From positions 1-40,262 of the IMG/VR virus record IMGVR_UViG_3300037247_000198: a stretch of 40,262 nucleotides of DNA. One strand, 5' to 3'. How positions within the stretch are numbered: the first letter of the stretch is position 1; each line of letters opens with the position of its first letter. The notes under the pieces were generated by a model. The model was given only the letters and a program-made list of their open reading frames with translations, did no database searches and was not told the DNA's origin. This DNA comes from a virus. The position numbers were made by a program, and so were the translations under genes. Of this stretch, positions 15,721 through 31,983 are shown piece after piece.

Positions 15721-15950
15721 TCTTTCTTCTCCGGCGCGAGGGCGGTCAGTTCTTCCAGCTTGCGCCACATCTCTAGGCAGAGTGTGCATCGGTGAATGTT
15801 CTGGTGGGCCGTGTAGGTCACACGCAGGGCCTTCGCCAGCGTGCGCTTCTCCCCCTCCAGCTCGGCGATGCGCTGTTTCAGTGGCATCAGCGCTTCCTGC
15901 GTCTGAGCAGCCATCTCTAAGATTGCAGCCGATTTCTCATACTCGTCCAT
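15717..15950 (-). CDS. Small coiled-coil protein with CxxC
   Basis: The start is ATG 15950 (GGAGG 7 nt upstream; TGATG junction with the gene before); a GTG 3 nt earlier is possible. The 77 residues are mostly helix, with a heptad pattern across LKQRIAELEGEKRTLAKALR, then HRCTLCLEMWRKLEEL, where CTLC and the nearby His could bind metal. The DNA is more GC-rich than its neighbours, which hints at recent acquisition. Unknown function. Confidence 0.65.
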   Translation of the reverse strand: MDEYEKSAAILEMAAQTQEALMPLKQRIAELEGEKRTLAKALRVTYTAHQNIHRCTLCLEMWRKLEELTALAPEKKE

Positions 15951-17759: not shown

Positions 17760-18410
17760 TTAGTCGGGCTTTGCTCCCTTGTGCCACACTCCGCCATCAT
17801 CCCTGTATGCCCGGCCAGCAGCCTCAAGAGTAGGTAGTAGCTGCCTGTTAGTCGCCTGCTCTATCAACTCGGGGTGCTTCCGTATCTCCGGGTCCACGAA
17901 GAACACCTGCTGGAAGTCCTGCTCTGTCTTGCCATCAAGCAGGTCCAGTACATGGGCGTCGATGTCTGCGGTCATCTGGGCTGGACTCCCAAGTCCATCG
18001 ATGCTGACTATTTGCCAGGCCCTATCCTCGATGTCCTTCCACTGGTCCCCTTCCTTTGTCCTCAGCTTGCATGGGCCGTACACCCACTCTTGCTGCTTGC
18101 CCACGATTTCATCAAGAGCAGGTGTCCGTCCGTAGAGTTTCTTGATGCTCTTGGCCAAGGCACCCCACCTTGTGACCTCTGTTTGTGAGTAACCGACATC
18201 AATGGTACAGATAGGGAACGCATACGGGTCTGTGCTTGCTATTACTTCAATGTCCGTGAAGTTGAAGCCGATGACCATGAAGGAACGACCACTGGCATCA
18301 TCCTTTTGGGGCTTGGAGATGTACTCCTTCAGTGTGCCTCTGAATTGTAGCAGCGGAGTTCCAAAGGCCTTAGTCTCTAGACTGGGTACGAACGCCTCTC
18401 CTGTTGTCAT
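17760..18410 (-). CDS. Probable single-stranded DNA-binding protein
   Basis: This 216-residue protein starts by ATGA overlap with the gene before. The first half alternates beta segments (LQFRGTLKEYISK, GRSFMVIGFNFTDIEVI, AFPICTIDVGYSQTE) in a way that suits an OB fold. The C-terminus has a winged-helix-like segment (HPELIEQATNRQLLPTLEAAGRAYRDDGGVW). Phages with Sak4-like ATPases and Cas4-like exonucleases commonly encode their SSB in this position. The assignment rests on fold impression and context, with no diagnostic motif, so it is moderate. Confidence 0.5.
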   Translation of the reverse strand: MTTGEAFVPSLETKAFGTPLLQFRGTLKEYISKPQKDDASGRSFMVIGFNFTDIEVIASTDPYAFPICTIDVGYSQTEVTRWGALAKSIKKLYGRTPALDEIVGKQQEWVYGPCKLRTKEGDQWKDIEDRAWQIVSIDGLGSPAQMTADIDAHVLDLLDGKTEQDFQQVFFVDPEIRKHPELIEQATNRQLLPTLEAAGRAYRDDGGVWHKGAKPD

Positions 18411-19243
18411 GTTGTCTCCTTCTGTTCAGTTGATGGACTAGCTCCATCTGGTGCTGGCTTTACTAGCTCCACAAGGTTAAACTCTAGCGTTTCACGGTTG
18501 AACATTACCTCCTGCTGGTCTAGCTCTACCTCCGCATGCCTTACTACATCAAACTTTATTGCTATCCTGTCTTCCCCTCTCCTTTCCACTTTAATCACAG
18601 TATCAGCCCATGCAGGTAGGACAGATGACCCTATGAGGTCGTCACTACCCCACTCGCCCATGTCCATCACACCCTTCCGAGTGTGTGCGATGATGACTAT
18701 TGATAGGCCATACTTGGCTATCATCATGTCAAGGTTATCAAGGACTTTCTCCACATCCATGCCTAAGAGCATGTTGCCTGAGAGGACCTTATACAGTGGG
18801 TCTATTATCAGCACATCAGGCTTGTGTTGGCCTACATAGTGGTCCAGCATATGCATACCTGCTGATTGGTCCAGCTTGAGAAAGTGCTGAGTCCACAGTA
18901 CTAGGTTCTCATGGTCCATCAGTTGTTGATGGTCCTGCCTACCTCTCCATGTCTTAGCAAGCCTAATGCGGAGAAGGGCGTAAGGAATCTCCAACTGCAA
19001 ATAGAACACACGGCTGCCTTCTGGGCGTGTTTGGAATCCTATCCAGTCATGTCCAGAAGCTAGAGCAAATGCCAAGTCTAGGCCTAGCATGGACTTGAGT
19101 GCCTTGTATCTGCCATACATTATCATCTTGGTTCTCTCATGTAGGAGACCAGAACCCATGAGGGGATTGTACTTTGCTGGTGGCCTTCCTAGTATCTGCT
19201 CTAAAGTTTCGGGTTCCTCAATGCCATCCTTGCTAGGCGTCAT
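18407..19243 (-). CDS. RepA-like RecA-fold ATPase/helicase with altered Walker A
   Basis: This 278-residue protein has the RepA/AAA_25 layout: P-loop region G44-RYKAL-K50-S51 followed by MLGLDLAFALASG, then Walker B DVLIIDP (D148) and the H186 sensor strand IVIIAHTRKG. The P-loop lacks the usual second glycine (GxxxxLKS). This is the likely replicative helicase or its loader, since no DnaB-type gene is seen. It overlaps the HTH gene upstream by 11 nt and the SSB-like gene downstream by 4 nt. Confidence 0.8.
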   Translation of the reverse strand: MTPSKDGIEEPETLEQILGRPPAKYNPLMGSGLLHERTKMIMYGRYKALKSMLGLDLAFALASGHDWIGFQTRPEGSRVFYLQLEIPYALLRIRLAKTWRGRQDHQQLMDHENLVLWTQHFLKLDQSAGMHMLDHYVGQHKPDVLIIDPLYKVLSGNMLLGMDVEKVLDNLDMMIAKYGLSIVIIAHTRKGVMDMGEWGSDDLIGSSVLPAWADTVIKVERRGEDRIAIKFDVVRHAEVELDQQEVMFNRETLEFNLVELVKPAPDGASPSTEQKETT

Positions 19244-19887: not shown

Positions 19888-20039
19888 CACCACCCCCATC
19901 CAAACCAGCTCTGTGTTATAGCTATGATGCCAACAGTTAGACCTGTCCCTGTGAGTAAGCCAACACCTGCTGCTAGGTACACAGCCTTACGTACCTGCTG
20001 TTCCCAGGTCTTCCACTTCCTCAGCCCACTACGCTTCAT
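19887..20039 (-). CDS. 50-residue single-span membrane protein
   Basis: This ORF is short but well framed. Its ATG (20039) overlaps the end of the upstream gene by 11 nt, and its TGA overlaps the DUF4326 start as TGATG. A basic N-terminus (MKRSGLRKWKTWEQQVRK) precedes one transmembrane segment (AVYLAAGVGLLTGTGLTVGI) and a Trp-rich end (WFGWGW). It is probably an inner-membrane protein with the basic end in the cytoplasm. Function unknown. Confidence 0.6.
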   Translation of the reverse strand: MKRSGLRKWKTWEQQVRKAVYLAAGVGLLTGTGLTVGIIAITQSWFGWGW

Positions 20040-20634
20040 CACCATCCCCATTACACACTACCACCATTCTTGTCTCCTTGTGCTCAGGGACATAGTGCTC
20101 CTTGACAGTTATCTCCTCCTCAACCAGCTTGCACCTGTCTGTCTCGTGAGCACCCTTGAAGTTGAAGGATACCTCTACCTCCCTAACAGGAGCATTACGC
20201 CTAGTCAGACGGTCAATCAAGGAGGGAGCCAGTATCCGCTGTGCCTCAAGGATGATAGTCATATCCTTGGTGTAGTCGTTGGCCTTTGCCTCCGGTTGCT
20301 TGGTTATCTGCCATCCCGCCTTCTCCAGTGCTGTGGCTAGCTTAGCTATGGTACCCAGTGCTATCTCAGCATACTCTGGGTCCTTCATGTCCACCTTGGG
20401 CCACAGTGTAAGCGAGAAATGCTTGAGCGGGTACTCATACCCAGGCTCCATGCCAATTACCTCGTAGCAGCCATGCAGCAGTCGTGGTATGTGAGGCAGG
20501 ATGTCCTTACGAATGATGGTATCCATCTCACGTAAGGCCTGGTCCTTTTGGAGCCTCCTTGTCCGCTCCTCACCCATCTTCTTGTCGATACCACTGACCA
20601 GATTGGTATCAGGTCCTATCTTTAGCGTTACCAT
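20029..20634 (-). CDS. Hypothetical early protein
   Basis: This 201-residue protein has a helical first half (EERTRRLQKDQALREMDTIIRKDILPHIPRLLHG), a middle with KVDMKDPEYAEIALGTIAKLATALEKAGW, and a beta-rich C-terminus (VREVEVSFNFKG, ITVKEHYVPEHKETRMVVVCNGDGDEA). No family recognised. It sits between the TIM-barrel gene and the small membrane gene in the leftward operon. Confidence 0.6.
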   Translation of the reverse strand: MVTLKIGPDTNLVSGIDKKMGEERTRRLQKDQALREMDTIIRKDILPHIPRLLHGCYEVIGMEPGYEYPLKHFSLTLWPKVDMKDPEYAEIALGTIAKLATALEKAGWQITKQPEAKANDYTKDMTIILEAQRILAPSLIDRLTRRNAPVREVEVSFNFKGAHETDRCKLVEEEITVKEHYVPEHKETRMVVVCNGDGDEA

Positions 20635-20665
20635 GCTTTACTCCTTACTACTTGTCCCTAATTCC

Positions 20666-21565
20666 TTACTCGTTCAGCAGGTCCCTTAGCTGATAGGACC
20701 ATACTACCTTATGTGAATGGCTATCCTCGAGGAAGCCTAATGCCTGGAGGGTAAGCCATCTCTTGTAGGTCATACTCTCCTCTCTGAACGACATGTCCGC
20801 CTGTAGGACATTGAACAGTAGAGGCTGACCACTTAGGTCCACGATAGTTGTGTCTAGCCAGTCTGGCATTTGTTCCTCCTGTCTTGGTGCATCGTTGACT
20901 ATGACTGCCCACTCTGCATCAGTGGCATGGCCTATGGTGTAGGCTTGGTAGCCCTTGAATCCTCTCTCGAAGCACCGTGCTATCTGGCTGGTCACAGCAG
21001 CAACACCTATACTATCGTATGTTTGGATGGTGGGTAGCACAGGCTTGCCGGCAAAGTCCCTAACATCAACGCAGTCAATGAATGCTTGGGTAACAGACCC
21101 TGGAGGCATAGAGGGACGGAATGCCTTTGGATATATCATTGGCATCCAGCCTGTGATGTACCTGCTGAGTACCTGCTGATATGGCATGAGCATCCGCCTG
21201 CCACGGGTATCTACTGAGGCATACAACTCAGCAGGTGACTGCTCCCTGAACCTCTCGCATAGCTGTCGCATCTGCTCACCACTATCAGGCTGCTCCCACT
21301 CATGCTCGGCATTGATGATGGCGAACTCCGCTCCCATCCGTATCCCTCTCACCAACAGGTCTGCGTCTGTAATGGCAGTATGAGGATAAGCATACACATC
21401 CACGCCCACCCTTATGCATGCATCCTTGAATAGCTGGAGGACGCCTGGATACTGAGCCTTGACTATCACGCCATCTAGCTTAGCCTCCTTGGCCCGTACT
21501 ATGCACTTGTCTATTGTTATAGGTATGTACTGATTCCACCATGCCCATCTACCTGCTGCTTTCAT
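20666..21565 (-). CDS. TIM-barrel, glycoside-hydrolase-like protein
   Basis: This 299-residue protein starts by ATGA overlap with the upstream gene. Repeating beta-strands fit a (beta/alpha)8 barrel: GVIVKAQYP, GVDVYAYPHTAI, FAIINAEHEWE, LYASVDT, GWMPMIYPKAF, VLPTIQTY and FKGYQAYTI. E and H in INAEHEWE lie at the strand end where glycosidases keep an acid. The look is that of GH25-like or related barrel domains used as cell-wall hydrolases, so it might be the endolysin, but an early-operon position is unusual for one. The remaining ~70 C-terminal residues could be a binding domain. Confidence 0.5.
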   Translation of the reverse strand: MKAAGRWAWWNQYIPITIDKCIVRAKEAKLDGVIVKAQYPGVLQLFKDACIRVGVDVYAYPHTAITDADLLVRGIRMGAEFAIINAEHEWEQPDSGEQMRQLCERFREQSPAELYASVDTRGRRMLMPYQQVLSRYITGWMPMIYPKAFRPSMPPGSVTQAFIDCVDVRDFAGKPVLPTIQTYDSIGVAAVTSQIARCFERGFKGYQAYTIGHATDAEWAVIVNDAPRQEEQMPDWLDTTIVDLSGQPLLFNVLQADMSFREESMTYKRWLTLQALGFLEDSHSHKVVWSYQLRDLLNE

Positions 21566-21858
21566 CCTTCATCCTCCTCGTATGGGTGAACATCCCAATC
21601 TGACGACCCCCGAAGGTAGGCATCCAGTCCTGCCTTGAATGTCTTGGAGTGGTCCTGATGACAAGGCTCAGGCAGTACCTTGAAGTGCTGGACCAGCCAC
21701 TCCACATCCTCCATGATAGCGGTCATCATCTCTTGATGGTAGTCCTCGGCCATCACGCCTACTACTACCTTCCCGTCAAGTACGGGCTGCATCCTATCAA
21801 GGGCCTGAGCTACCCAGTCCTGCATCGGTGTGCTAGTTTGTGCTTGTTGGGTGACCAT
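21562..21858 (-). CDS. Hypothetical protein
   Basis: This 98-residue acidic, helical protein (DWVAQALDRMQPVLDGKVVVGVMAEDYHQEMMTAIMEDVEWLVQHF) ends in an acidic tail (YEEDEG). It overlaps the TIM-barrel gene by 4 nt and the upstream zinc-ribbon gene by 26 nt. No family recognised. Confidence 0.6.
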   Translation of the reverse strand: MVTQQAQTSTPMQDWVAQALDRMQPVLDGKVVVGVMAEDYHQEMMTAIMEDVEWLVQHFKVLPEPCHQDHSKTFKAGLDAYLRGSSDWDVHPYEEDEG

Positions 21859-22105
21859 TCTTAATCGCTACCTTTCTGTACTTACCCGGTATGTGCATGG
21901 CTACTACCAGCCCACATCCCTGCTTACGTATGCAGGTGTCCTTGCCACATTCCTCACATGTACCATGAGTAAAGAATGTGTTGGGTATGTCCATTGTCTG
22001 CCTGCTGCCACAGTGTTGACAGGTAAACTTCTGCCAGACTTGACCGCCATTCTGTATGACCTCTAGGCCCTTGTTGACAGCATCATCGAAGGGTACATCA
22101 GGCAC
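21833..22105 (-). CDS. Zinc-ribbon protein
   Basis: This 90-residue protein starts at GTG 22105, behind AGGTG. Two knuckles, FTCQHCGSRQTM and GTCEECGKDTC, form a zinc ribbon, and an extra cysteine pair follows (C...GCG). The first 28 residues are helical. It overlaps the neighbours on both sides, as most genes here do. Role unknown. Confidence 0.68.
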   Translation of the reverse strand: MPDVPFDDAVNKGLEVIQNGGQVWQKFTCQHCGSRQTMDIPNTFFTHGTCEECGKDTCIRKQGCGLVVAMHIPGKYRKVAIKNGHPTSTN

Positions 22106-22229
22106 AGCAACAACACCTATAGATACCTGTCCAAAATCTTATGGAACCTGTCTCATATAGGCACGCTGCCGTACCGTGATACAGATGATGGCAGTTAGAG
22201 CACAGCAGTTTTATCTTTACCTTTGGCAT
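22098..22229 (-). CDS. Cys-rich zinc-finger-like microprotein
   Basis: I use the internal ATG 22229 because the product then begins MPKVKIKLLCSNCHHLYHG and ends in four consecutive cysteines plus Ala, a compact zinc-finger-like protein of 43 residues. The frame stays open to ATG 22388, which would give 96 residues with a further Cys-containing segment (ECYMTGPCPFAWHPSC). That upstream stretch coincides with a foldable element at 22243-22355. Neither start has a good ribosome site, so the boundary is uncertain. Confidence 0.45.
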   Translation of the reverse strand: MPKVKIKLLCSNCHHLYHGTAACLYETGSIRFWTGIYRCCCCA

Positions 22230-22242
22230 GATATTTTTAGTA

Positions 22243-22355
22243 GGACTGGAGCCAGGACTCACACCTGGTATCTGACAGGAGGGATGCCATGCGAAAGGGC
22301 ATGGTCCCGTCATGTAGCACTCCGTTACCCTCATTCGGGCGATGTGCTCCAGTCC
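22243..22355 (-). ncRNA. Candidate structured RNA or mRNA leader element
   Basis: Read on the minus strand, a 10-bp perfect closing stem (22355-22346 with 22252-22243) encloses several nested hairpins. One is a 4-bp stem with one G-U pair (about 22340-22327). One is an 8-10 bp interrupted hairpin (22308-22281) with a CCATGC/GCATGG core. One is a 5-bp stem with a 7-nt loop (22268-22252), like a T-arm. The G-U pair works only for RNA made from this strand. It ends 13 nt before a possible ATG (22229), like a cis-regulatory leader. Not a tRNA: the distances between arms are wrong. The same DNA may be coding, so this is tentative. Confidence 0.3.
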
Positions 22356-22388
22356 CTGCCGAACCGCTGTGTAGCAGACAACCCACAT

Positions 22389-22484
22389 CTACCACTGGTG
22401 CGCCCATTGAGACCTCAGTGCAGGCAGGCGGCACAAGTACCATTCTGCCTGCCTAGTCGCACCTTCCCACTCGTCCATGCCCAT
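22389..22484 (-). CDS. 31-residue micro-ORF
   Basis: ATG 22484 has GGAG 6 nt upstream. The product contains MDEWEGATRQAEWYLC and is Trp-rich. Its TAG is followed immediately by ATG 22388, the longest start of the next frame. It belongs to a run of abutting micro-ORFs at 22389-22614, in a stretch with no larger gene. Confidence 0.3.
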   Translation of the reverse strand: MGMDEWEGATRQAEWYLCRLPALRSQWAHQW

Positions 22485-22487
22485 CCG

Positions 22488-22550
22488 CTACTCCAGAATG
22501 CGGGGACTATCCGGGTGCAGGACAGGCAGGGCACCAGCAACCTTAGTCAT
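22488..22550 (-). CDS. 20-residue micro-ORF
   Basis: ATG 22550 overlaps the stop of the preceding micro-ORF, and the stop lies 3 nt before ATG 22484. The product is MTKVAGALPVLHPDSPRILE. There is no ribosome site of its own; it would rely on coupling. This is weak evidence. Confidence 0.18.
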   Translation of the reverse strand: MTKVAGALPVLHPDSPRILE

Positions 22551-22614
22551 GGGGGTGACAACCTAAGTTTTGAGGAGGTTTAGGCTGGCTACTGGTACCC
22601 TGTCTATCCTTCAC
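22543..22614 (-). CDS. 23-residue micro-ORF
   Basis: GTG 22614 overlaps the upstream stop as GTGA, with GAGGG 4-5 nt before it. The short product is basic, Pro/Gln-rich and ends GCHPHD. It could be a genuine micropeptide or chance. Confidence 0.22.
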   Translation of the reverse strand: MKDRQGTSSQPKPPQNLGCHPHD

Positions 22615-22814
22615 TGTTCCCTCATGTTATACACATTATCTAGGATACCGAGGGGCCTTAGTGCCTCATCAGCTATCCTTTCCGACACAACTACCGAATC
22701 CTTTGTGAAGCTGTACCCTCGACCCACCAGAGTAGCCTCACCTGTGGCTATGACCGCCAACCTGATAGCCTCCATCATCAGCATGTACTGTTGGAACTGC
22801 TCTCTATCCATCAT
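22611..22814 (-). CDS. Hypothetical 67-residue protein
   Basis: Two consecutive ATGs (22814, 22811) follow GGGAGGGC, a strong ribosome site. The protein is a helix (REQFQQYMLMMEAIRLAVIATGEATLVGRGYSFTKDS) followed by a second short helix (SERIADEALRPLGIL). Its start overlaps the stop of the 45-residue gene before it. No family recognised. Confidence 0.6.
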   Translation of the reverse strand: MMDREQFQQYMLMMEAIRLAVIATGEATLVGRGYSFTKDSVVVSERIADEALRPLGILDNVYNMREQ

Positions 22815-22948
22815 GCCCTCCCAGCTATTGGCACAGTCCGTGCCCTCTTGAGCGTATGTGGTAGCTCCTTGACATAGACCACCGCCCTCATGTAGTCATG
22901 TCCCTTGTTGTCAGGCTTTGGCACCTTTACAAGTGTCTTGTATCTCAC
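22811..22948 (-). CDS. 45-residue basic protein
   Basis: GTG 22948 follows AAGGAGAAGTAAC, a good ribosome site. The product is basic (RYKTLVKVPKPDNKGHDYMR, then HTLKRARTVPIAGRA). The stop overlaps the next start (ATGATG). The 107 bp upstream (22949-23055) holds only a weak 23-residue frame at 22967-23038 without a ribosome site. Confidence 0.5.
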   Translation of the reverse strand: MRYKTLVKVPKPDNKGHDYMRAVVYVKELPHTLKRARTVPIAGRA

Positions 22949-23055
22949 GTTACTTCTCCTTATAGCTCACTCAAGGCACCAGCAGTCAGCCCACAGGAGG
23001 TTGCTGACGCTGGTGGCATTGTGGACTACTGCTGGCACCTTGACTAAGCTACACC

Positions 23056-23229
23056 TTATCCTTGTATCCCGTGCTCACCCTTCACGAAGTATACCGTACC
23101 ACTTGTTGTGGTAACACGGGCAAAGTGACCTGTTATTCCATTCCACTTAGGTACCACTGCCTCCACATCTCTACTCCAATCCAGCAGTACCTCACCACCA
23201 CTCACCAGTAAATACACCCTCTTGCTCAT
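23056..23229 (-). CDS. 57-residue beta-rich protein
   Basis: I choose ATG 23229, 2 nt after the stop of the preceding gene; a GTG at 23298 would overlap that gene by 67 nt. The product is beta-rich (KRVYLLVSGGEVLLDWSRDV, then ARVTTTSGTVYFVKGEHG) and could be a small SH3-like barrel. No family recognised. Confidence 0.5.
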   Translation of the reverse strand: MSKRVYLLVSGGEVLLDWSRDVEAVVPKWNGITGHFARVTTTSGTVYFVKGEHGIQG

Positions 23230-23231
23230 GG

Positions 23232-23426
23232 CTACCGGCTTATAGTAGTCAGGGCTCTTGTGGTCTGGGGTGTTGAGCAAGCCCTTCTCACTATCCACAC
23301 ATAGTCCTCGCTCGCCATCCTATTTGCAGATACCATTGTCTTTAGCCTCTCCGCTATCCGTTGGCGCAGCCTTGCTATGTCTGCTGGGTCCTTCTCAAAG
23401 ATGATGGCTATGATTGGGTTTATCAT
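23232..23426 (-). CDS. 64-residue hypothetical protein
   Basis: ATG 23426 is preceded by AAAGGGGTGACAAC, the same leader sequence found at the gene starting at 23914. The product opens with a short hydrophobic segment (NPIIAIIFEKD) and an amphipathic helix (ADIARLRQRIAERLKTM). Function unknown. Confidence 0.5.
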   Translation of the reverse strand: MINPIIAIIFEKDPADIARLRQRIAERLKTMVSANRMASEDYVWIVRRACSTPQTTRALTTISR

Positions 23427-23460
23427 GTTGTCACCCCTTTCTTTACTCCTTCAGTAATAC

Positions 23461-23750
23461 CCTAGCAGGAGCACCTGACCGGCGTGTGTCTGGTCGGTCA
23501 GGGTTGTCTGCTCCTGGCAGCTAGGCTTAGACAGGGGGACACAACATCCCTGCCCGGTCTGCTCCTGCTAGGCTACTACTCTCCACATCTGGGGCCGCGA
23601 ACCGTAGTAGGGGAAATGAGTCTCTACTTTGGGCCGGCTCACGACCCCACATGTACTGAGTCGAAAATATTAAAAGATAAATTTTACATCGGACTCACCC
23701 CCTCTGCCTATCTGGTATGAATCAAGATATGGGGCGGAGCCGGCTCCCCG
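23461..23750. repeat. Inverted-repeat-rich noncoding region
   Basis: No convincing gene lies in 23427-23770. It is packed with inverted repeats. There is a 13-bp perfect arm pair (23461-23473 / 23560-23572) enclosing CCTGACC/GGTCAGG (23474-23480 / 23496-23502), TGTCT/AGACA (23505 / 23529) and CAGGG/CCCTG (23532 / 23548). Then come CTACTAC/GTAGTAG (23573-23579 / 23604-23610), GGGGCCG/CGACCCC (23591-23597 / 23642-23648, G-U on the minus strand), TGAGTC/GACTCA (23657 / 23692) around an A/T-rich core, and a 12-bp palindrome GGAGCCGGCTCC (23736-23747). It may be a replication origin or a structured leader of the operon. Confidence 0.6.
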
Positions 23751-23770
23751 TACTGTGCTCCCTACGTAGC

Positions 23771-23914
23771 CTATCCGGGTCGACCAGTCAGCCTGCAGAT
23801 AGGCGTAACTACAATCACTTCACCAGTATAGAGGCTACGTCGATAGCATAGGATTAGGTGCTCGTTTGCCTCGCCATTGCTCTTGAGTGCTTGGCCGCAG
23901 CTAAGACAATTCAT
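23771..23914 (-). CDS. Zinc-finger microprotein, first gene of the leftward operon
   Basis: ATG 23914 follows AAAGGGGTGACGACC; a longer frame to 23968 would start in the promoter leader and lacks a ribosome site. The product has 47 residues with MNCLSCGQALKS, then HLILCYRR, a CxxC...H...C zinc-binding pattern. It is the first gene behind the strong leftward promoter at 23979-24007, so it should be among the earliest proteins made. Confidence 0.6.
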   Translation of the reverse strand: MNCLSCGQALKSNGEANEHLILCYRRSLYTGEVIVVTPICRLTGRPG

Positions 23915-23978
23915 GGTCGTCACCCCTTTCCACTTGTCCGACCAGTTCTCACTAGTCGAGTCTCTCAATGTCCCCTAT

Positions 23979-24007
23979 ATTGTACCACGGTTGATTGCTC
24001 GTGTCAA
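23979..24007 (-). promoter_or_regulatory. Leftward sigma-70 promoter (early operon)
   Basis: On the minus strand, TTGACA (24007-24002), a 17-bp spacer and TACAAT (23984-23979) give a near-consensus promoter. The predicted start is about 23972, leaving a leader of about 57 nt before ATG 23914. A second TTGACA lies 14 bp upstream (24021-24016). CGACTAG, one base off the recurring CGACTAA motif, lies just downstream (near 23953-23959). It should drive the replication operon. Confidence 0.85.
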
Positions 24008-24152
24008 TAGAGTTATGTCAAGTACAGCATAATGATTCTTACTCTTTAAACACTCTTTACTTACTTAACTATACCACTCACTTGTCCTCTCAATTCTCCT
24101 CGCTGACCTGAATTAGGTCTTTAGCATACACCCCTAAACAGTTAAGCCGATC

Positions 24153-24185
24153 TTTGTATACTTTGTGCTTCGATATGTATACAAA
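24153..24185. promoter_or_regulatory. 9-bp inverted repeat, probable operator
   Basis: TTTGTATAC (24153-24161) and GTATACAAA (24177-24185) form a perfect dyad with 15 bp between the arms, in the space between the divergent promoters. A second, 6-bp dyad ACGGTA/TACCGT follows (24186 to about 24213). Both suit binding of a dimeric regulator. The rest of the 388-bp gap 23915-24302 shows only the two promoters. Confidence 0.5.
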
Positions 24186-24227
24186 CGGTACTCATAGATT
24201 ACTAAGTGAATACCGTACTTATACCTA

Positions 24228-24256
24228 TTGACTTTCACTCCCAAGTGTGCGATAAT
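24228..24256 (+). promoter_or_regulatory. Rightward promoter of the isolated gene
   Basis: TTGACT (24228-24233), a 17-bp spacer and GATAAT (24251-24256). The start should be about 24263, 40 nt before ATG 24303. It points away from the leftward promoter at 23979-24007. Confidence 0.75.
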
Positions 24257-24302
24257 AAACATAGTGAGAGTCCAGATATACCGAGTTCAGAAAGGTATCC
24301 TA

Positions 24303-24908
24303 ATGACCATACAAGAGCTAGAAGTCAACGAGACACAGGCCAAGGCCGGCCTGGAGTCTGCAATCAAAGACTTTGAGGCCCAGCGTGGCACGGCCTCAAT
24401 CGTAGACCTCGGAAAGCTAGCAAATGCGGTTACAACTGCCACGCGCAAGGCCGAAAGTGCCATTCGTGAGCTAGCGGACTTCGCGCTAGTCGGGATATAT
24501 GAGGCCGTCAAGGTGCAGATTGAGAAGCTTGGCGACAAGCTGCTGCACCCGACTGATGTGGCAACGCTACTTGAGAAGCAGGTTTCGATGCTCTCAATCA
24601 GTGTGCCACTCAGTGCTGATGGTCTCGGTACTATCGTGGTCAACACTCTCGGCCGCAAGACTCGTGTTGCTAGCACGGGCGGGAACGGGACTCGCGCACG
24701 TTGGGAGATGCGATGTGGCAGCGAGAGCATGGAGTGTCGAGCGTTCCTCGAGAGTGACTACGGCCTGGCGCTCGGTGAGCATAAAGATGGCGGCCTGATG
24801 CGCGACAGAGTGCTAGCAGAGCCGGCGCGCTACGGGCTGTCCGACTACGCTGCACGAGCCGGCGCCAAGTGCGACCCAGTTTGGGAACGTGTGAAGAAAG
24901 ACGACTAG
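24303..24908 (+). CDS. Isolated hypothetical protein in the control region
   Basis: ATG 24303 (AAAGG 8 nt upstream, downstream of its own promoter) gives 201 residues; a TTG at 24228 lies inside the promoter and is rejected. The N-terminal half is helical (LEVNETQAKAGLESAIKDFEAQRG, LGKLANAVTTATRKAESAIREL). The C-terminal half is mixed, with RARWEMRCGSESMECRAF and a final YAARAGAKCDPVWERV segment. It is the only rightward gene between two leftward blocks, more GC-rich than its neighbours, and has its own terminator. That is the layout of a regulator or a moron; no DNA-binding motif is obvious. Confidence 0.65.
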   Translation: MTIQELEVNETQAKAGLESAIKDFEAQRGTASIVDLGKLANAVTTATRKAESAIRELADFALVGIYEAVKVQIEKLGDKLLHPTDVATLLEKQVSMLSISVPLSADGLGTIVVNTLGRKTRVASTGGNGTRARWEMRCGSESMECRAFLESDYGLALGEHKDGGLMRDRVLAEPARYGLSDYAARAGAKCDPVWERVKKDD

Positions 24909-24910
24909 AG

Positions 24911-25129
24911 TTAGCATAGGCTAACAGCACACCTGAGGCCCCGGGTTCTCTCACTACCGGGGCCTCTTACTTTGGCCGGAAGTATCGACTATCATCCGGC
25001 ATTAGCATCACCTAACAGCTAGCATGAGGACGACCTCGAAGATTGTGATAGGTTTCACATGGTTCTATCGCCGTACACTAACCCTCCCCATTAGCACCTA
25101 CTAACACCCAGCCTGACCACCTACTAACA
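24911..25129. repeat. Three TTAGCA-N4-CTAACA dyads at ~90-bp spacing
   Basis: Exact copies of TTAGCA-N4-CTAACA occur at 24911-24926, 25002-25017 and 25091-25106, starting 91 and 89 bp apart. The core TTAG-N6-CTAA is a dyad. A 12-bp direct repeat CACCTACTAACA follows at 25095-25106 and 25118-25129. The 253-bp stretch 24909-25161 holds no gene apart from this and the terminator. The sites may bind a phage regulator or replication initiator. Confidence 0.65.
24935..24973 (+). terminator. Rho-independent terminator after the isolated gene
   Basis: A perfect 10-bp GC-rich stem GAGGCCCCGG/CCGGGGCCTC (24935-24944 / 24957-24966) with a 12-nt loop is followed by TTACTTT, 27 bp after the stop of the rightward gene. 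The stem could also slow leftward transcripts arriving from the 25162-27325 operon, although there is no T-run on that side. Confidence 0.8.
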
Positions 25130-25161
25130 TGCCACCTAAGTTGATACGTATGACCCTACTG

Positions 25162-25419
25162 TTAGGTACTCACATCTCCGTATTCTCCAGTCGCAAATTT
25201 TCTCATTTCAGCATCTTGCTCCCTAAAGAACTCCTCTGCTTTAATAAGTGTTGGAAAGAAGAAGCCCCAGTCAGTAGCTGGAGGATGAGGCCAGGACCAG
25301 AAGACGCCATACGGGCTATCGTCTCCATACTTTATATTCCAGAAGACAAGTCTGACCCAGTGACCGTCAAAGTGAGCGCACTGCTTGATAGTGGGAGGGC
25401 AATAGGTACACTCACTCAT
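25162..25419 (-). CDS. 85-residue hypothetical protein
   Basis: This protein has a Trp/aromatic-rich core (HFDGHWVRLVFWNIKYG, GVFWSWPHPPATDWGFFFP) and a helical end (KAEEFFREQDAEMRKFATGEYG), with cysteines in SECTYCPP near the start. It is the last gene of the second leftward operon. No family recognised; the ribosome site is weak, so it probably relies on coupling with the gene 5 nt upstream. Confidence 0.55.
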   Translation of the reverse strand: MSECTYCPPTIKQCAHFDGHWVRLVFWNIKYGDDSPYGVFWSWPHPPATDWGFFFPTLIKAEEFFREQDAEMRKFATGEYGDVST

Positions 25420-25423
25420 TTAC

Positions 25424-25654
25424 TTATTCAGCTATTGGAAGTATCTTTGCCTGTTTTGAGGGATACCAGAGCAGTAGAGCAGAGCCGCGGAGTATTAGCC
25501 GTAAGTACGGGAACTTGGTACGCAGCTTGGTATCCTTGCCGCGGAGAGAGAAGTAAGCATTAGAAGGAGTACGGCCGTTCAGCCAAGGCGTAATTTCAAG
25601 AGCCATGCCTTGTGGTATTTGCTCGATTGCAGACCAGGGGAGCCAAGACTTCAT
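25424..25654 (-). CDS. 76-residue hypothetical protein
   Basis: I choose ATG 25654, one base after the stop of the upstream gene; in-frame starts at 25723 and 25741 would overlap that gene by 68 nt or more. The protein is Trp/Pro-rich at the start (KSWLPWSAIEQIPQGMALEITPW), then basic (RGKDTKLRTKFPYLRLILRG). No family recognised. Confidence 0.5.
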   Translation of the reverse strand: MKSWLPWSAIEQIPQGMALEITPWLNGRTPSNAYFSLRGKDTKLRTKFPYLRLILRGSALLLWYPSKQAKILPIAE

Positions 25655-25655
25655 C

Positions 25656-26000
25656 TCAATCCATCCCTGCTTCTGCCTCGCCTGGTGGCTTTGATAGGCC
25701 TGAATCCTCAACTGGGGCTTCATCAGGTGGCTGGTCATCACCTTCTCTTGTGAAGCGTCTCTCCAACTCGTCAGATGGAGGAGGGACTGTAGGCTTAGAC
25801 TGAAGCATCTTTACATCCCTATTGAGCATCAGAAGCTCGATTAGGGCATCTATACCAGGCTCCCTGAGAGTAAACTTGAAATACTCTGTTGCTCCACCTG
25901 CATGTTCAATTACCAGCTTTCCGTCCAATAACTCGAAGGTGATGGTACCCTTGCCCTGTGTGACCTTGACCTGCTTACTTACCCTTGTCTTACTGCTCAT
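25656..26000 (-). CDS. 114-residue protein with acidic disordered tail
   Basis: ATG 26000 has AAGGAG 8 nt upstream and overlaps the stop of the small membrane gene (ATGA). A beta-rich N-terminal part (KVTQGKGTITFELLDGKLVIEH) and a helix (GIDALIELLMLNRDV) are followed by about 45 acidic, proline-rich residues, probably disordered. The acidic tail recalls protein-binding or DNA-mimic tails, but that is only an impression. Confidence 0.6.
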   Translation of the reverse strand: MSSKTRVSKQVKVTQGKGTITFELLDGKLVIEHAGGATEYFKFTLREPGIDALIELLMLNRDVKMLQSKPTVPPPSDELERRFTREGDDQPPDEAPVEDSGLSKPPGEAEAGMD

Positions 26001-26089
26001 GACATTCTCCTTATCCAGTTGACCACTTCCCAGACTATGATGCCTGCTATCATTGTGAGGATGAAGATGATAGTCGGGTTAGATGTCAT
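25997..26089 (-). CDS. 30-residue membrane microprotein
   Basis: The ATG and TGA both overlap neighbours as ATGA, fixing the frame. The peptide starts MTSNP, has a single transmembrane helix (TIIFILTMIAGIIVWEVV) and a basic end (NWIRRMS). It is probably an inner-membrane micropeptide. Function unknown. Confidence 0.6.
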   Translation of the reverse strand: MTSNPTIIFILTMIAGIIVWEVVNWIRRMS

Positions 26090-26352
26090 CCTAATTTAAG
26101 CTCCGTGACCTTGCGGATGGCAGAACGTGGGATGAAGAGCTGTTCGTCCTCCAATCTAACATCCGAAGACCACCGAGGGCCGTAGCTGCGAATGATAATG
26201 AGACCACGGTTGCTGTCATGTTTGACATATCCGACACTCCTGACTGCTGTGCGGGAACTCTCTGGCGGTTCGTCAACGGGGTCTTGCCATCCACCACGAG
26301 CCATAGAGTCCTCCCACTCCACCTCAACAATGCGCTCAGTCGGATTTGTCAT
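26086..26352 (-). CDS. 88-residue hypothetical protein
   Basis: Acidic N-terminus (ERIVEVEWEDSMARGG) then a beta-rich domain (NRGLIIIRSYGPRW, LEDEQLFIPRSAIRKV). It overlaps both neighbours by 4 nt. No family recognised. Confidence 0.6.
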   Translation of the reverse strand: MTNPTERIVEVEWEDSMARGGWQDPVDEPPESSRTAVRSVGYVKHDSNRGLIIIRSYGPRWSSDVRLEDEQLFIPRSAIRKVTELKLG

Positions 26353-26666
26353 CCTGTTGCCTGTCTACACAGATGCACACCACATCTATCCGTACAAGCA
26401 TGTGGAGCTAGGTGCTCTTGTGGTAATGCTGCAAAGACATAACCTCCATAAGTATTCGGATGGTCTATGCTGACTGTCCACCAGCCATCCCTTATAGGCG
26501 GTATATCCTGCTTATCGCGTCTCCCATGTAGAGTATCAAAGTCCTTTGTGTGTGATGGGCAGAGTATGGACCCTATCTTGCCAACTGTCCACTCATATCC
26601 AGGTATATGATGTTTGAGGATAAGTACCATATCCCCGTGTTTGAGCCCTATCTGACAATTATTCAA
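26349..26666 (-). CDS. SH3/KOW-like hypothetical protein
   Basis: The start is TTG 26666, with GGAGGTC about 7 nt upstream and a TTGA overlap with the previous stop. The 105 residues contain KHGDMVLILKHHIPGYEWTV, which resembles a KOW/SH3-like barrel strand pair. A Cys/His-rich C-terminus follows (HACTDRCGVHLCRQ) that may bind zinc. Function unknown. Confidence 0.6.
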   Translation of the reverse strand: MNNCQIGLKHGDMVLILKHHIPGYEWTVGKIGSILCPSHTKDFDTLHGRRDKQDIPPIRDGWWTVSIDHPNTYGGYVFAALPQEHLAPHACTDRCGVHLCRQATG

Positions 26667-27325
26667 TACTCGACCTCCCCATCTTCCTTTCCTGCCTCGT
26701 AGTCCTTGCCTTGTCTCTCTATAGTTGCTTGCTGTCTTTCAAGGAACCACTCCTTCATATCCTTGCTAAACTGTTCTCCCATGCCTAGTCTTTCTGCTTC
26801 CTCAGACTTAGCCTTAGGGACACGTAGTGGATGTTGGTAGTGGTCCTTGACCTCTTGCCAGAACTTATCATATGCCAGTTTGGACTCACTCTTACGACCA
26901 CGGTACTGGAGCACAGGATACCCAGTCTTTCCGATTTTCTTGTCCAGTTCGTGTATTCGGTCAGTCAGCTTTAGCAGCTTGTCACCTGAGGTGGTCCTCA
27001 AGTCTCTTAATAGCTGCGCCTTGTTTCTGACTAATCTCTGTCTCTCTTGCTTGTCCTTAGAGGGCAAGTCTTTCATACCTATCCGACCGTCTTTGCTTAG
27101 GGGCGTCTTATTAAACGTCCACATTGCCCAGGCAACGAAGCATGTTTCGTGGTATTGCTTGTAGAAGATTGTGGTCCTGGTGCCTATCATCCCCTGTTTG
27201 GTTAGAATGAACACCTTTTCACCAGGTAGCACCTTTCGGTCCTTGTTAACTTCACAAAGTGCGTAGTTGCAGGTACCTTCCTTCCTCTTAGTTACTATCT
27301 TGAGTCTGCCTAGGTGTCTTGGCAT
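26663..27325 (-). CDS. Protein with PARP-type zinc-finger-like N-terminus
   Basis: This 220-residue protein is the first gene behind the leftward promoter at 27367-27395, with AGGGAG before ATG. The N-terminal part reads CNYALCEVNKDRKVLPGEKVFIL and later YHETCFVAW, a C-x4-C...H-x2-C arrangement like PARP-type or related DNA-binding zinc fingers. The rest is basic helix (KDKQERQRLVRNKAQLLRDLR, KLTDRIHELDKKIG). It is probably an early nucleic-acid-binding or host-takeover protein. Confidence 0.6.
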   Translation of the reverse strand: MPRHLGRLKIVTKRKEGTCNYALCEVNKDRKVLPGEKVFILTKQGMIGTRTTIFYKQYHETCFVAWAMWTFNKTPLSKDGRIGMKDLPSKDKQERQRLVRNKAQLLRDLRTTSGDKLLKLTDRIHELDKKIGKTGYPVLQYRGRKSESKLAYDKFWQEVKDHYQHPLRVPKAKSEEAERLGMGEQFSKDMKEWFLERQQATIERQGKDYEAGKEDGEVEY

Positions 27326-27340
27326 GTTGGCTCCCTTCTA

Positions 27341-27457
27341 TCGACTAATCTATCGTTATATACAGTATTGTATCACATTAGTCGAAGTTTGTCAAGTTGA
27401 TAGGCTGTATAAGCACATTATCATATAGAGAGCGACTAAATCTCTATAATACTGTAT
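27341..27457. promoter_or_regulatory. Operator-like inverted repeats between divergent promoters
   Basis: TCGACTAAT/ATTAGTCGA (27341-27349 / 27377-27385) and ATACAGTATT/AATACTGTAT (27360-27369 / 27448-27457) are perfect dyads. A further CGACTAA is at 27433-27439. One arm lies in the spacer of the leftward promoter and another covers its start region, as expected for operators. Confidence 0.6.
27367..27395 (-). promoter_or_regulatory. Leftward sigma-70 promoter of the second small-gene operon
   Basis: On the minus strand, TTGACA (27395-27390), a 17-bp spacer and TACAAT (27372-27367). The start is about 27360, 35 nt before ATG 27325. The spacer contains CGACTAA. Confidence 0.85.
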
Positions 27458-27479
27458 TTAATCATTGAAAGGTCGAGAC

Positions 27480-27508
27480 TTGACACAGCGCCTGGAACGT
27501 GCTATACT
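27480..27508 (+). promoter_or_regulatory. Rightward late promoter 1, predicted leaderless
   Basis: TTGACA (27480-27485), a 17-bp spacer and TATACT (27503-27508). Counting 7 bp from the -10 box puts the first transcribed base on the A of ATG 27515. The upstream TTAATCA-TGAA block and the CGTGC before -10 are shared with the promoter at 38402-38430. Confidence 0.85.
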
Positions 27509-27514
27509 GTCAAC

Positions 27515-28150
27515 ATGAGCCAAGAGACTCTACCTGATACGACTGACCAGGACGTAGCTGACCCTACTGGAGAACAGGCACTCCTCAGTCGTATCTCACA
27601 TATGTCAGGGAGTGAGAAAACTGCTGAGGCTAAGGCAGGCTACCTAGGTTATAGAGCGTGTGGGTTTCCTGTCAGACAGGCTCTTTATCTGTCTGATAAC
27701 TCCCAAGCTACATTAAAGCGATGGAGGAAGGACGACCCCGAGTTTACCCGTGTAGAGACAGAGGAACTGGGCCAACTTCAGGCCTCTGTCTCCAAGGACC
27801 TCATCCAACTAGACTTCCTTAGAAACATGCGTATGGCGATGCGTACAGATGCCAAGATTCTATACAAGGCTGTACAAACTGTAGATGCCCTTACTCAGAG
27901 GGAGTTCAAGCACCTACAGAGGATTAGGTCCATGTACTCACCATCTGACCTTGTTACAATGACCAAGGCTCTTAGTCCAGCCGGCGAGGAGCCTGGTGAC
28001 TTTGCATCTGCAATCTTTAAGCTCCTAGAGGCACGAAACGTAAATGAGGAAATGACAGTCAGAACAATGGAGGTTACAGTTGCCAAGGGGCACGATGATT
28101 CCGATGAGGACGAGTCGCCCATCATTGAGGGCCAGTCCCAAGAGGTCTAG
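27515..28150 (+). CDS. terS: Terminase small subunit (probable)
   Basis: This 211-residue protein directly precedes the packaging genes. A helical DNA-binding N-terminal part (KAGYLGYRACGFPVRQALYLSDNSQATLKRWRKDDPEF) fits the HTH of small terminases. A long central helix for oligomerisation and an acidic tail (HDDSDEDESPIIEG) follow. It should recognise the packaging site and load the large subunit. No ribosome site precedes ATG 27515, and the promoter predicts transcription starting at that ATG; an internal ATG at 27602 is the alternative start. Confidence 0.7.
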   Translation: MSQETLPDTTDQDVADPTGEQALLSRISHMSGSEKTAEAKAGYLGYRACGFPVRQALYLSDNSQATLKRWRKDDPEFTRVETEELGQLQASVSKDLIQLDFLRNMRMAMRTDAKILYKAVQTVDALTQREFKHLQRIRSMYSPSDLVTMTKALSPAGEEPGDFASAIFKLLEARNVNEEMTVRTMEVTVAKGHDDSDEDESPIIEGQSQEV

Positions 28151-28280
28151 CTGGATAGGCAGTAGGCGCCAACTTAGTGCAGTCAGGCGTAACATCAAGA
28201 AGGCGCATCTAGTAGGATGGGTACGTAGACATGCAAGGCCAAGCTGGATGCCTCCTAAGAGTTTCCACAAGCGGCGATAG
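28080..28280 (+). CDS. Small basic protein overlapping terS
   Basis: The 66-residue frame starts at TTG 28080, with GGAGG 7 nt upstream. It overlaps the acidic tail of the small terminase by 71 nt, and a later TTG (28125) is possible. The C-terminal part is strongly basic (SRRQLSAVRRNIKKAHLVGWVRR, PPKSFHKRR). The non-overlapping part fills the gap to the next gene, which supports it. Function unknown; DNA or RNA contact is likely. Confidence 0.4.
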   Translation: MPRGTMIPMRTSRPSLRASPKRSSWIGSRRQLSAVRRNIKKAHLVGWVRRHARPSWMPPKSFHKRR

Positions 28281-28428
28281 ATGCGGGCACTGTGGAGGCA
28301 CGTTCTATCGGGATGATGATGGCAGGTTTTGTATCAACTGTGCAAGGCCTGAGTACCCTATTATAGTTCCTCTGTACATACTTGATGAGAAAAGACCATA
28401 TATTACGAGTAAGCTGAGAGGGAGGTAA
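28231..28428 (+). CDS. Zinc-ribbon microprotein
   Basis: This 65-residue protein has CGHCGGTFYRDDDGRFCINC, two CxxC knuckles of a small zinc ribbon, followed by a hydrophobic strand (PIIVPLYIL). It overlaps the basic ORF by 50 nt and lies 2 nt before the membrane gene. Role unknown. Confidence 0.6.
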   Translation: MQGQAGCLLRVSTSGDRCGHCGGTFYRDDDGRFCINCARPEYPIIVPLYILDEKRPYITSKLRGR

Positions 28429-28430
28429 TT

Positions 28431-28640
28431 ATGGACAACCTGTTTGACCGTATCAAGAGTGTAGGTTTTCATGGGGCAGTTGGCCTCATAGTCATCCTGG
28501 CCCTTGTGTTTCTTGTGGTATACGGGTTCGTTGAGAGGCCTGACCACAAAATCACATCTGATGCAGTAGCCATCCTTGGGGTCGGTGCTGGTTCAGTTAT
28601 CACCGCAGTCGTGATGGCGTTGAAGGGTAAGTCAGAATAG
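28431..28640 (+). CDS. Two-span membrane protein, holin-like
   Basis: This 69-residue protein has a strong ribosome site (GGGAGG). It has two hydrophobic helices, about residues 15-33 (VGLIVILALVFLVVYGF) and 45-63 (AVAILGVGAGSVITAVVMAL), joined by a charged loop and ended by KGKSE. Size and topology fit a class II holin or a small membrane protein, but its place between the terminase subunits is not typical for lysis genes. Confidence 0.6.
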   Translation: MDNLFDRIKSVGFHGAVGLIVILALVFLVVYGFVERPDHKITSDAVAILGVGAGSVITAVVMALKGKSE

Positions 28641-28810
28641 TGGACTGTCAGCATAGATGGATAATCAAGGCTGCTATGCTAGGTAGCCTTCCTGCCTGGT
28701 GCAAAAAGTGTGGGGCAACAAGGACATTTCCTCTAGTAGTTCCTCTAACAGAGGGCAGTCTCAGGTACGTGACTAGGAGGGCTGACATTGAACCAACAGC
28801 CGTCATTTGA
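28640..28810 (+). CDS. 56-residue zinc-binding protein
   Basis: GTG 28640 overlaps the membrane gene's TAG by 1 nt, and the frame ends 23 nt inside the large terminase. The product has DCQHRW near the start and WCKKCGATRTF in the middle, a C-x-H...C-x2-C zinc site. It matches the short zinc proteins scattered through this genome. Confidence 0.55.
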   Translation: MDCQHRWIIKAAMLGSLPAWCKKCGATRTFPLVVPLTEGSLRYVTRRADIEPTAVI

Positions 28811-30284
28811 GAACCTGATTCTGGACAAAAAGGTTTACATTGAGACCTTAATGAAGGTTCAGAACAAGGAAAGGGTACAGGTTCCCTTTAATCTCAATCC
28901 CTCCCAGCAGATAGTCTGGCCCCACATAATAAAGCCAGGAGCAAGGCTCCTAATTCTCAAGGCCCGTCAGATGGGCTCTACCACAATCTATATTGCCAAG
29001 TTCCTAGCTGACTGCTGCACCATCCCCGGTACAGTATCCGTGATTGCTAGTGAGAACGAGTTTGCTACTCAGAGGGCACTGTCTCGTGCCCATTCACTCT
29101 ACAATTCTGTTCCTGAGCCATTTAAGCCCAAGATGCACCATGCATCCTCATACGAGATTACCTGGCCGGAGATAGACACTACCATGTTTATTACCTCTGC
29201 TGGGTCAAAGCTTCTAGTCAGAGGGGACACCATTCATAACTTCCTTGCTACAGAAGTTTCTCGCTGGCATGACCCTGAGGGAGCAATGGCCGCAGCAGAA
29301 GAGGCTGTTCCGCTTAAAGGCTTTATTGTGGTAGAGTCAACACCTTGGGGCGAGGGTGACTACTTCCATACTGAAATTCAGTCTGCAATCAAGGGTACCT
29401 CTGCGTACACATTTATATTCCTGCCGTGGTGGCTTGACCCTGAATATCGCATACCTGAGAATAGTTCTCTTGCCTTAGCAGCTGACCGTGGAGCACTAGA
29501 GTACTCACCCGATGAGCATGACCTTGTGATTACACACAACTTGGATATGGAACAAGTTAGATGGCGTAGGCGTAAGATTGCGGATAGGAAACTTAACTTC
29601 GGCCAGGAATACCCTGAGGACCCAGTATCGTGCTTCCTTACATCTGGTGAGATGGTCCTAGATGGAGTTAGACTAGACGAACTTTCTAAGATGTGTTACC
29701 CAGCGCCAAGGTCGTTCCAGTCCTCGAAGGTCTGGTATCCGCCCATCAAAGGTGGTGTCTATCTGATTTCCGCTGACCCAACTGTAGGCGCCAATGACAA
29801 AGCCGCAGCGGTAGTATGGAACATAGGCGAGGGTATGACTCACTGTGCTACCCTTTGGGGACTATACGAGCCTGAAGTACTTGCAAATAAGTTGATGGAC
29901 CTAGGCAAGCACTATCACAATGCAGAAGTCCAGGTAGAGGTAAATGGCCCAGGCCAGGCAGTATTACTGGCAATGAAGAACTATTCCAACCTAGGCAAGC
30001 GACGTGACTTGGTTACAGGTGTCTTAACCAGTAAGATTGGCTGGCTCACAACCAAATCCTCCAAGCCTTATATGATAGCCCAGATGGGGAGGGAAATCCA
30101 CAATATCGCTATATTTGATATTGAGATAATTAGGCAGCTTAGAGGACTCAGGTGGTTTGGCTCAGACATCATCTCAGTTGGTGAGGATGACCTAGCAATG
30201 GCTGCTATGATAGGAACTAGCACGGCCCAGGGGGTTGGCACTGTTCAAGAGGGATTTGCAGGCACTTACGGATTCAGATGGTAA
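28788..30284 (+). CDS. terL: Terminase large subunit
   Basis: This 498-residue protein starts at TTG 28788, behind AGGAGGG. The ATPase domain has the Walker A-like KARQMGSTT (58-66), FLATEVSRW in the Walker B area and ESTPWGEGD (coupling region). The nuclease domain opens with SADPTVG (D330), the first acidic residue of the RNase H-like fold, with VEVNGPGQ further on. It packages DNA into the prohead, powered by ATP, and cuts it. Length and motif order are normal for the family. Confidence 0.92.
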   Translation: MNQQPSFENLILDKKVYIETLMKVQNKERVQVPFNLNPSQQIVWPHIIKPGARLLILKARQMGSTTIYIAKFLADCCTIPGTVSVIASENEFATQRALSRAHSLYNSVPEPFKPKMHHASSYEITWPEIDTTMFITSAGSKLLVRGDTIHNFLATEVSRWHDPEGAMAAAEEAVPLKGFIVVESTPWGEGDYFHTEIQSAIKGTSAYTFIFLPWWLDPEYRIPENSSLALAADRGALEYSPDEHDLVITHNLDMEQVRWRRRKIADRKLNFGQEYPEDPVSCFLTSGEMVLDGVRLDELSKMCYPAPRSFQSSKVWYPPIKGGVYLISADPTVGANDKAAAVVWNIGEGMTHCATLWGLYEPEVLANKLMDLGKHYHNAEVQVEVNGPGQAVLLAMKNYSNLGKRRDLVTGVLTSKIGWLTTKSSKPYMIAQMGREIHNIAIFDIEIIRQLRGLRWFGSDIISVGEDDLAMAAMIGTSTAQGVGTVQEGFAGTYGFRW

Positions 30285-30294: not shown

Positions 30295-31983
30295 ATGCCT
30301 TATAAAGAAGCATCTAAGGTAATCGCCCGTTGTAAGGAGCTGTCGGACCTCTACATCCAACGCAATAAGAACATAGCTGATTGGTACTCTCTTCTAACTC
30401 TCTATGACGACCTTGAGCAAGAGAATATGGAAAGTGTAGTTGCCAACAACCCCCGGACCTTCTACAATACCGCTCTCTACCTGCTTACATCAGGAGTCCC
30501 ACATAGAGTCCCAATGGAAGGTCTCGACCGTGAATCCGCAGCCTGGGCCAGCTCTCTTGAGCGGGTTGTTAATACCACCTGGGCAAAGTTAGACCGCCAA
30601 TACCGTAAGCGTGGCCGCAAGTCCTGGATGGAATACATGGTAGGCCTACTTCTAGCCACAGGCTGGTACTCAGTCCTCAATATAGCTGCCCGTGACAAGT
30701 TAATTGCTGAGGTATGGAATCCTATCGAAGTCTATCCAGACTGGGATGGCGAAGGCCTGGAGTCTGTAGCCCACGTCTTTACTATCAGCAATAGCCAGGC
30801 ACGTAGGATGTTTGCCCAGAGAGGTTGGAATGACAAGCCTCTAAGGACAAAGAAATCAGGTGACATTACTATCTACGACCTGTGGGAAATGGACGGCCTT
30901 AACGTAATGAACGTGACTGTGGCGGAGACTGCAATGGTCAAGAACGAACCACAGGAGTCTTTTGAGCAAATACCAGTCCTCGTAGGCCCTGCCGGTGGCC
31001 TCCCAGATGATGGCCCTATCACTAACAGACGTGTGGGTAAGGTCAAAGACGAGTGGCGAGCGAACATAGGCCAGTCTATCCTTGCTACAAATGCAAGGGT
31101 CTATAAGGGCTACAACCGCCTTATGACCTTCATGCAGCAAATCCTGAGAGACACAGCCCAGCCTAAGTACTGGGAGAAGGGCAGAGGCAGTGCCATTCTA
31201 ACTCCAGAGGAGTTAGAAAAGCGTGGTGCCATATTCCGCCTAGCCGAGGATTCCGAGATAGGAACCATTCAAATGCCAGGCATCCCTGTAGAGCTAACTG
31301 GCCTAATTGCCTCCTATGAGGCTATGATACAAAGGGGTAGCCTGCCTCACGCACTGTCCGGTGATGTTGCGAATATCCCAATTGGCCTCATGTCCCAAGT
31401 AGCTGCTGCCGCTGTCCAAACACTTTCCCTAATGAAAAATGCTATCACAGGTGTCCTTACTGACATTGATAACACCTGGAAAGACGGTATATTTAGTGGT
31501 GTCTATGAGCAGGAGACACTAACTATACCTGAGGGCATCCCTCTTGATGCTATCATGTTTGATGCCAAGTACACAATCAACATCCCAGGTGACCTTATCC
31601 AGCGTGCTACCATCCTCCGCATGATTTCCCCGTCAGCAAGGATTTCTTCGTCAATGGGCCTTGACCTCTTCTTCCCTGAAATCCAAGACCCAATACGGGA
31701 GCTTGCACAAGCCCGTACTGATGATGCCCAGATGCATCCAGTCTTCTCCATGCTCAACCTTATCTCAGCACTAAGAGAAGAAGCTGAGATGCTGAGGAAG
31801 ATGGGGAACGAGACAGATGCCCAGCTTCTTGACCAAGCTCAGGAGGCGCTTAAGGCCCAGCTACAGGGCACGATGCAGCCACAACAGGAAAATGGCAGAG
31901 CCCCATCGGGTATCCCTGCTAAGGGCGTATCGCCTACAGAGCAGGCACGGTTGAAGGATTTAGGGGTGGACATAAATGCCTGA
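30295..31983 (+). CDS. Portal protein
   Basis: This 562-residue protein uses ATG 30295, behind AAGGAG; a TTG 60 nt earlier overlaps the terminase. It sits directly after terL. It has the portal-type layout: alpha-beta wing (NNPRTFYNTALYLLTSGVPH, WNPIEVYPDWDGEG), a long stem/crown region with helices (YKGYNRLMTFMQQILRDTAQPKYWEKG) and a GSLPHALSGD loop near the tunnel helix. It forms the dodecameric DNA channel at one prohead vertex. The C-terminal 60 residues are Gln/Pro-rich and probably disordered. Confidence 0.85.
   Translation: MPYKEASKVIARCKELSDLYIQRNKNIADWYSLLTLYDDLEQENMESVVANNPRTFYNTALYLLTSGVPHRVPMEGLDRESAAWASSLERVVNTTWAKLDRQYRKRGRKSWMEYMVGLLLATGWYSVLNIAARDKLIAEVWNPIEVYPDWDGEGLESVAHVFTISNSQARRMFAQRGWNDKPLRTKKSGDITIYDLWEMDGLNVMNVTVAETAMVKNEPQESFEQIPVLVGPAGGLPDDGPITNRRVGKVKDEWRANIGQSILATNARVYKGYNRLMTFMQQILRDTAQPKYWEKGRGSAILTPEELEKRGAIFRLAEDSEIGTIQMPGIPVELTGLIASYEAMIQRGSLPHALSGDVANIPIGLMSQVAAAAVQTLSLMKNAITGVLTDIDNTWKDGIFSGVYEQETLTIPEGIPLDAIMFDAKYTINIPGDLIQRATILRMISPSARISSSMGLDLFFPEIQDPIRELAQARTDDAQMHPVFSMLNLISALREEAEMLRKMGNETDAQLLDQAQEALKAQLQGTMQPQQENGRAPSGIPAKGVSPTEQARLKDLGVDINA

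Follow-up and report, generated by a model that had tools for sequence, protein, structure and literature searches.

Repeated 26-bp units between two converging operons of a tailed phage: a probable cluster of protein-binding sites

Why would a phage carry three exact copies of a short dyad at one spot outside its genes, and nowhere else? The window, by which we mean the whole linear virus record of 40,262 bases analysed here, contains three exact matches to TTAGCA-N4-CTAACA, all on the plus strand. As the original prediction had stated, their starts (24911, 25002 and 25091) lie 91 and 89 bp apart. The search through the full record for which it had called places all three in one gap of 253 bp and none outside it, and a control search with the reversed pattern gave 0 matches in the record. 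The gap itself (24909–25161) had been described as free of genes, and codon usage gives no sign of coding in any of its six frames.

The record is that of a tailed phage. Its replication block lies on the minus strand (DNA polymerase 11624–13518, helicase/primase-like gene 18407–19243), and other parts of the genome are recognised as follows:

2680–5968: tail and head matches
28788–30284: terminase large subunit
39120–40097: capsid-like protein

The DNA polymerase homology at 11624–13518 (minus strand) extends over two frames that match consecutive parts of phrog_17 (654–825 and 843–1202), with a small ORF between them. Just past the gene at the portal position there is a frame of 2035 aa (31976–38083, plus strand), which is about 55% identical in a related contig, L015, to which we return below.

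The features of the gap and of the genes that border it are:

24303–24908, plus strand: upstream gene of 201 aa, function not assigned, with its own promoter-like site at 24228–24256
24911–24936, plus strand: copy 1 of the 26-bp unit, TTAGCATAGGCTAACAGCACACCTGA, dyad match 24911–24926
24935–24966, plus strand: terminator-like hairpin GAGGCCCCGG/CCGGGGCCTC followed by TTACTTT, directly past copy 1
25002–25027, plus strand: copy 2 of the 26-bp unit, TTAGCATCACCTAACAGCTAGCATGA, dyad match 25002–25017
25043–25059, no strand: palindrome TTGTGA-TAGGTT-TCACA, between copies 2 and 3
25091–25116, plus strand: copy 3 of the 26-bp unit, TTAGCACCTACTAACACCCAGCCTGA, dyad match 25091–25106
25114–25139, plus strand: decayed copy 4, TGACCACCTACTAACATGCCACCTAA, 13 of the 17 invariant bases kept, 23 bp on from copy 3
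25162–25419, minus strand: last gene of the converging operon (25162–27325), from the ORF list and codon usage

The dyad that had been proposed as the conserved element is indeed conserved, but it is not the whole element. Aligning the three copies yields an asymmetric unit of 26 bp, TTAGCA-N4-CTAACA-NCNNNCNTGA, in which 17 of 26 positions are invariant. All 12 core bases are identical and none of the 4 spacer columns is invariant; to the right of the dyad, half of the next 10 columns (5/10) are invariant (P ~2e-4), and the left flanks show no conservation across the three copies. Within the record the full unit is confined to this gap. The dyad of copy 1, which starts 2 bases past the stop codon of the upstream gene, is in addition a perfect palindrome (GTTAGC-ATAG-GCTAAC). 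The 12-bp direct repeat CACCTACTAACA, also noted in the original prediction, is real and connects copy 3 with the decayed copy 4 at 25114. Shuffled sequence yields a score of 13/17 roughly once in every 40 kb, and copy 4 is credible because of its place beside copy 3, not because of its score.

The repeats are unlikely to be an accident of base composition. The best triple of 16-mers within the gap has 12 columns in common, a value that none of 500 dinucleotide shuffles of the gap reached (maximum 10). Elsewhere in the record only the stretches at window starts 251 and 7126 attain 12 shared columns, and both lie within ORFs according to the ORF list. The gap contains 6 occurrences of the word CTAAC/GTTAG, where 0.4 would be expected from the whole record.

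On the strength of these patterns, we consider it probable that the three intact copies and the decayed one are recognition sites of a single sequence-specific DNA-binding protein, which is probably encoded by the phage. Because the core is fully conserved and the spacers have fully diverged, the copies point to protein contacts under selection and not to a recent duplication. TTAGCA and CTAACA both fit the direct-repeat form YTARCA and lie 10 bp apart, with RCMTGA another 10 bp on. We infer that the unit may be seen as three hexamers facing the same side of the helix, all of which the bound protein would touch. If one turn takes 10.5 bp, the distances of 91 and 89 bp between copies amount to 8.67 and 8.48 turns, which are not whole turns; hence each copy faces roughly away from its neighbour, and copies 1 and 3 are the only pair in phase. 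This speaks against the cooperative looping that had been suggested from the even spacing.

What could a protein bound here do? The gap separates the 3′ ends of two converging units, the plus-strand gene 24303–24908 and the minus-strand operon 25162–27325, and the minus-strand ORFs bounding the gap outscore an overlapping plus-strand ORF (25129–25563) in codon usage. A consensus scan for sigma-70-like sites found no promoter in the gap. In the scanned stretch there are 11 promoter-like sites, compared with 4.2 in shuffles; strong ones occur nearby at 24228 (plus), 24007 (minus), 27395 (minus) and 27480 (plus), and the one nearest to the gap is about 650 bp off. The plus-strand sites TTGACACAG...CGTGCTATACT at 27480 and ~38402 share extended sequence (regions 27341–27508 and 38308–38436), and in front of each stands a long, imperfect inverted repeat that contains CGACTAA and has arms of 44–45 nt, 70–73% complementary; a shared phage regulator may have its site here.

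The converging position without a promoter leads us to favour, tentatively, a transcription boundary or roadblock as the best overall explanation of these recognition sites. Bound copies would mark the border between the two converging units and, as a roadblock, would stand in the way of RNA polymerase heading leftwards from the minus-strand operon. The plus-strand gene would be served by its own terminator, the hairpin at 24935–24966, which our consensus terminator scan missed because a loop limit of 8 leaves it out. For the minus-strand operon the same scan, which is crude, recognised no leftward terminator in the gap. Some observations do not sit well with a roadblock. It does not require several sites, there are no copies of the unit at other operon ends in the record, and L015, the single syntenic relative, does not share the sequence of the unit.

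The main rival to a transcription boundary or roadblock is a site for replication or maintenance. If the repeats were an origin array, as the original prediction had proposed, the units would be iteron-like sites, and a phage initiator bound to them would recruit helicase and primase of the phage. An origin would fit the position of these direct repeats, in non-coding DNA with the replication block on one side and the terminase block on the other, and it would fit the retention of an ortholog of the adjacent gene in L015. We nevertheless regard an origin as somewhat unlikely. The AT content of the gap is just 44–54%, compared with 60–68% in the neighbouring promoter gaps, and the AT-rich stretches that could unwind are found elsewhere (23990–24160, 27330–27420 and 38281–38380). 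The copies follow one another at about 90 bp, unlike closely packed iterons, and are not in helical phase; no initiator gene is recognised near the gap, the adjacent gene being without a family match; and GC skew has no clear extreme there. Of the earlier proposal, an array for a DNA-binding protein stands as the best reading, while its specifics, looping and a replication initiator, are not supported. A partition, attachment or other maintenance site is decidedly improbable. Elements of this kind are typically clusters of sites outside genes and in one place, as observed here, but among the proteins scanned there is no integrase, no ParA and no convincing ParB (a single sub-threshold ParB_C match falls on an ORF of 64 aa), and comparison of the gap DNA with phage and plasmid records revealed nothing similar.

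One could also argue that the units are operators of a phage regulator acting at a distance on the flanking promoters. The product of 24303–24908 could be this regulator, or the HTH_17/MerR-like protein that the record encodes at 15538–15789. Dimeric regulators typically have sites with a dyad core, and a looser version of the core seen here, TTAGCA-N7-CTAAACA, is found at 24121, with the promoters at 24007 and 24228 on either side. Operators are unlikely all the same, as the units neither overlap with nor lie close to any of the sigma-70-like sites, and no further convincing copy of the full unit is found at a promoter. That the cluster is a non-functional relic of local duplication is quite unlikely. 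The direct repeat common to copies 3 and 4 and the lack of sequence conservation in L015 would fit a relic, but a duplication is hard to reconcile with a core that is fully kept while spacers and flanks have fully diverged. It is very improbable that the dyads function as RNA hairpins in transcripts instead of as DNA sites. Dyad 1 can fold into a 6-bp stem with a 4-nt loop, yet dyads 2 and 3 retain just 4 pairs with no compensatory change, so that the full stem exists in copy 1 only. The folding energy of the minus strand is near shuffled values; the plus strand is about 1.9 s.d. below shuffles, but its main stem is the terminator hairpin. Rfam searches, like tRNA searches, returned no matches.

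The product of the adjacent gene 24303–24908 is, by position only, the natural candidate for the protein that would bind the repeats. It matches no family, and its AlphaFold model (pLDDT 55) shows no confident fold and no meaningful structural match. Protein searches of phages and of viral and genome contigs found a homologue only in L015.

L015 is one of two related IMG/VR contigs (the other is L014) found by scans with TerL and the DNA polymerase, and it is the only relative found that covers the gap. With a TerL that is 67% identical and an ortholog of 24303–24908 that is 36% identical, L015 is syntenic but not a close relative. It has no TTAGCA-N4-CTAACA dyad; the original prediction had named such an absence as its refutation, but for close relatives. 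Its corresponding gap instead contains two copies of a palindrome, ATTGTGAAGGAWWGCACAA, 118 bp apart and identical at 17 of 19 bases (maximum of 16 in 500 shuffles), which occurs nowhere else in the contig. A hairpin at 7319–7352 follows the same gene, in a position equivalent to that of the hairpin at 24935–24966. The palindrome TTGTGATAGGTTTCACA at 25043 in the window resembles the repeated TTGTGAAGGAWWGCACAA of L015, which also has one CATTAGCA at 7400; these shared words are only suggestive because the two gaps, when aligned directly, score no higher than shuffled sequence. Repeated sites that recur at the same spot with a different sequence are what we would expect if protein and sites change together. 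Taken further, the phage family might keep a boundary or maintenance site in the gap between its converging operons. The repeated motif there would differ from one phage to the next because the phage protein that binds it, perhaps encoded by the adjacent gene, evolves fast. We consider this broader idea improbable at present. The small-gene operon 25162–26352 (minus strand) contains other genes, in another order, than its counterpart in L015, which points to an early region that varies.

Beyond these relatives, a megablast of positions 20000–30000 against phages gave no matches, and a scan for the full 26-bp unit gave three, all within open frames. When IMG/VR was scanned for two dyads at about the spacing seen here, ten contigs matched. 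Six of them represent one conserved stretch that looks protein-coding and one a repetitive coding-like stretch. The remaining three are related phages with non-coding dyad arrays of the form TTAG[CT]-N4-[AG]CTAAC, four or five dyads each:

L004, 4764–4927: dyad array upstream of terminase genes
L008, 5747–5892: dyad array upstream of terminase genes
L011, 5253–5417: dyad array upstream of terminase genes

Like the window, these phages have very similar dyads in a non-coding gap. Unlike the 26-bp unit, their dyads lack the right-hand extension, and their position upstream of terminase genes differs from that of our repeats. We take the arrays as a likeness of form, because the proteins of the three phages have nothing in common with those of the window except for one weak match.

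The cluster is real but probably ordinary. Its appeal lies in its setting: a likely protein-binding cluster in a group of phages without a near relative among the annotated phages, paired with an uncharacterised neighbouring gene (24303–24908), a combination that can be tested directly. Should repeated sites turn out to be general here but variable in sequence between relatives, then the pair would show how the DNA-binding specificity of a phage protein evolves.

How does the cluster compare with known systems? The LexA-type boxes of the Xanthomonadales have the form TTAG-N6-TACTA; their spacing differs from that of our dyad, and the string TTAG-N6-TACTA had no match in a paper search. Iterons of plasmid and lambda-type phage origins (PMC10797057) are direct repeats in a non-coding stretch, as are our units; the window differs in having no adjoining AT-rich unwinding stretch (its AT content reaches 68% only outside the gap), a wide, out-of-phase spacing and no recognised initiator. 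In cluster A mycobacteriophages (L5, TipsytheTRex), the repressor binds asymmetric sites known as stoperators, which lie in short intergenic spaces and influence RNA polymerase during elongation (PMC9283540). They are 13-bp sites that occur more than 20 times across the genome, promoters included, and their repressor is known (PMC9283540). Our 26-bp unit occurs in three or four copies in one gap, none at promoters, and has no known repressor; because its sites are not spread over the genome, we do not count them among the stoperators. The two systems are alike in that their sites share one orientation, and the stoperators demonstrate that transcription boundary or roadblock sites of the kind we propose do exist in phages (PMC9283540).
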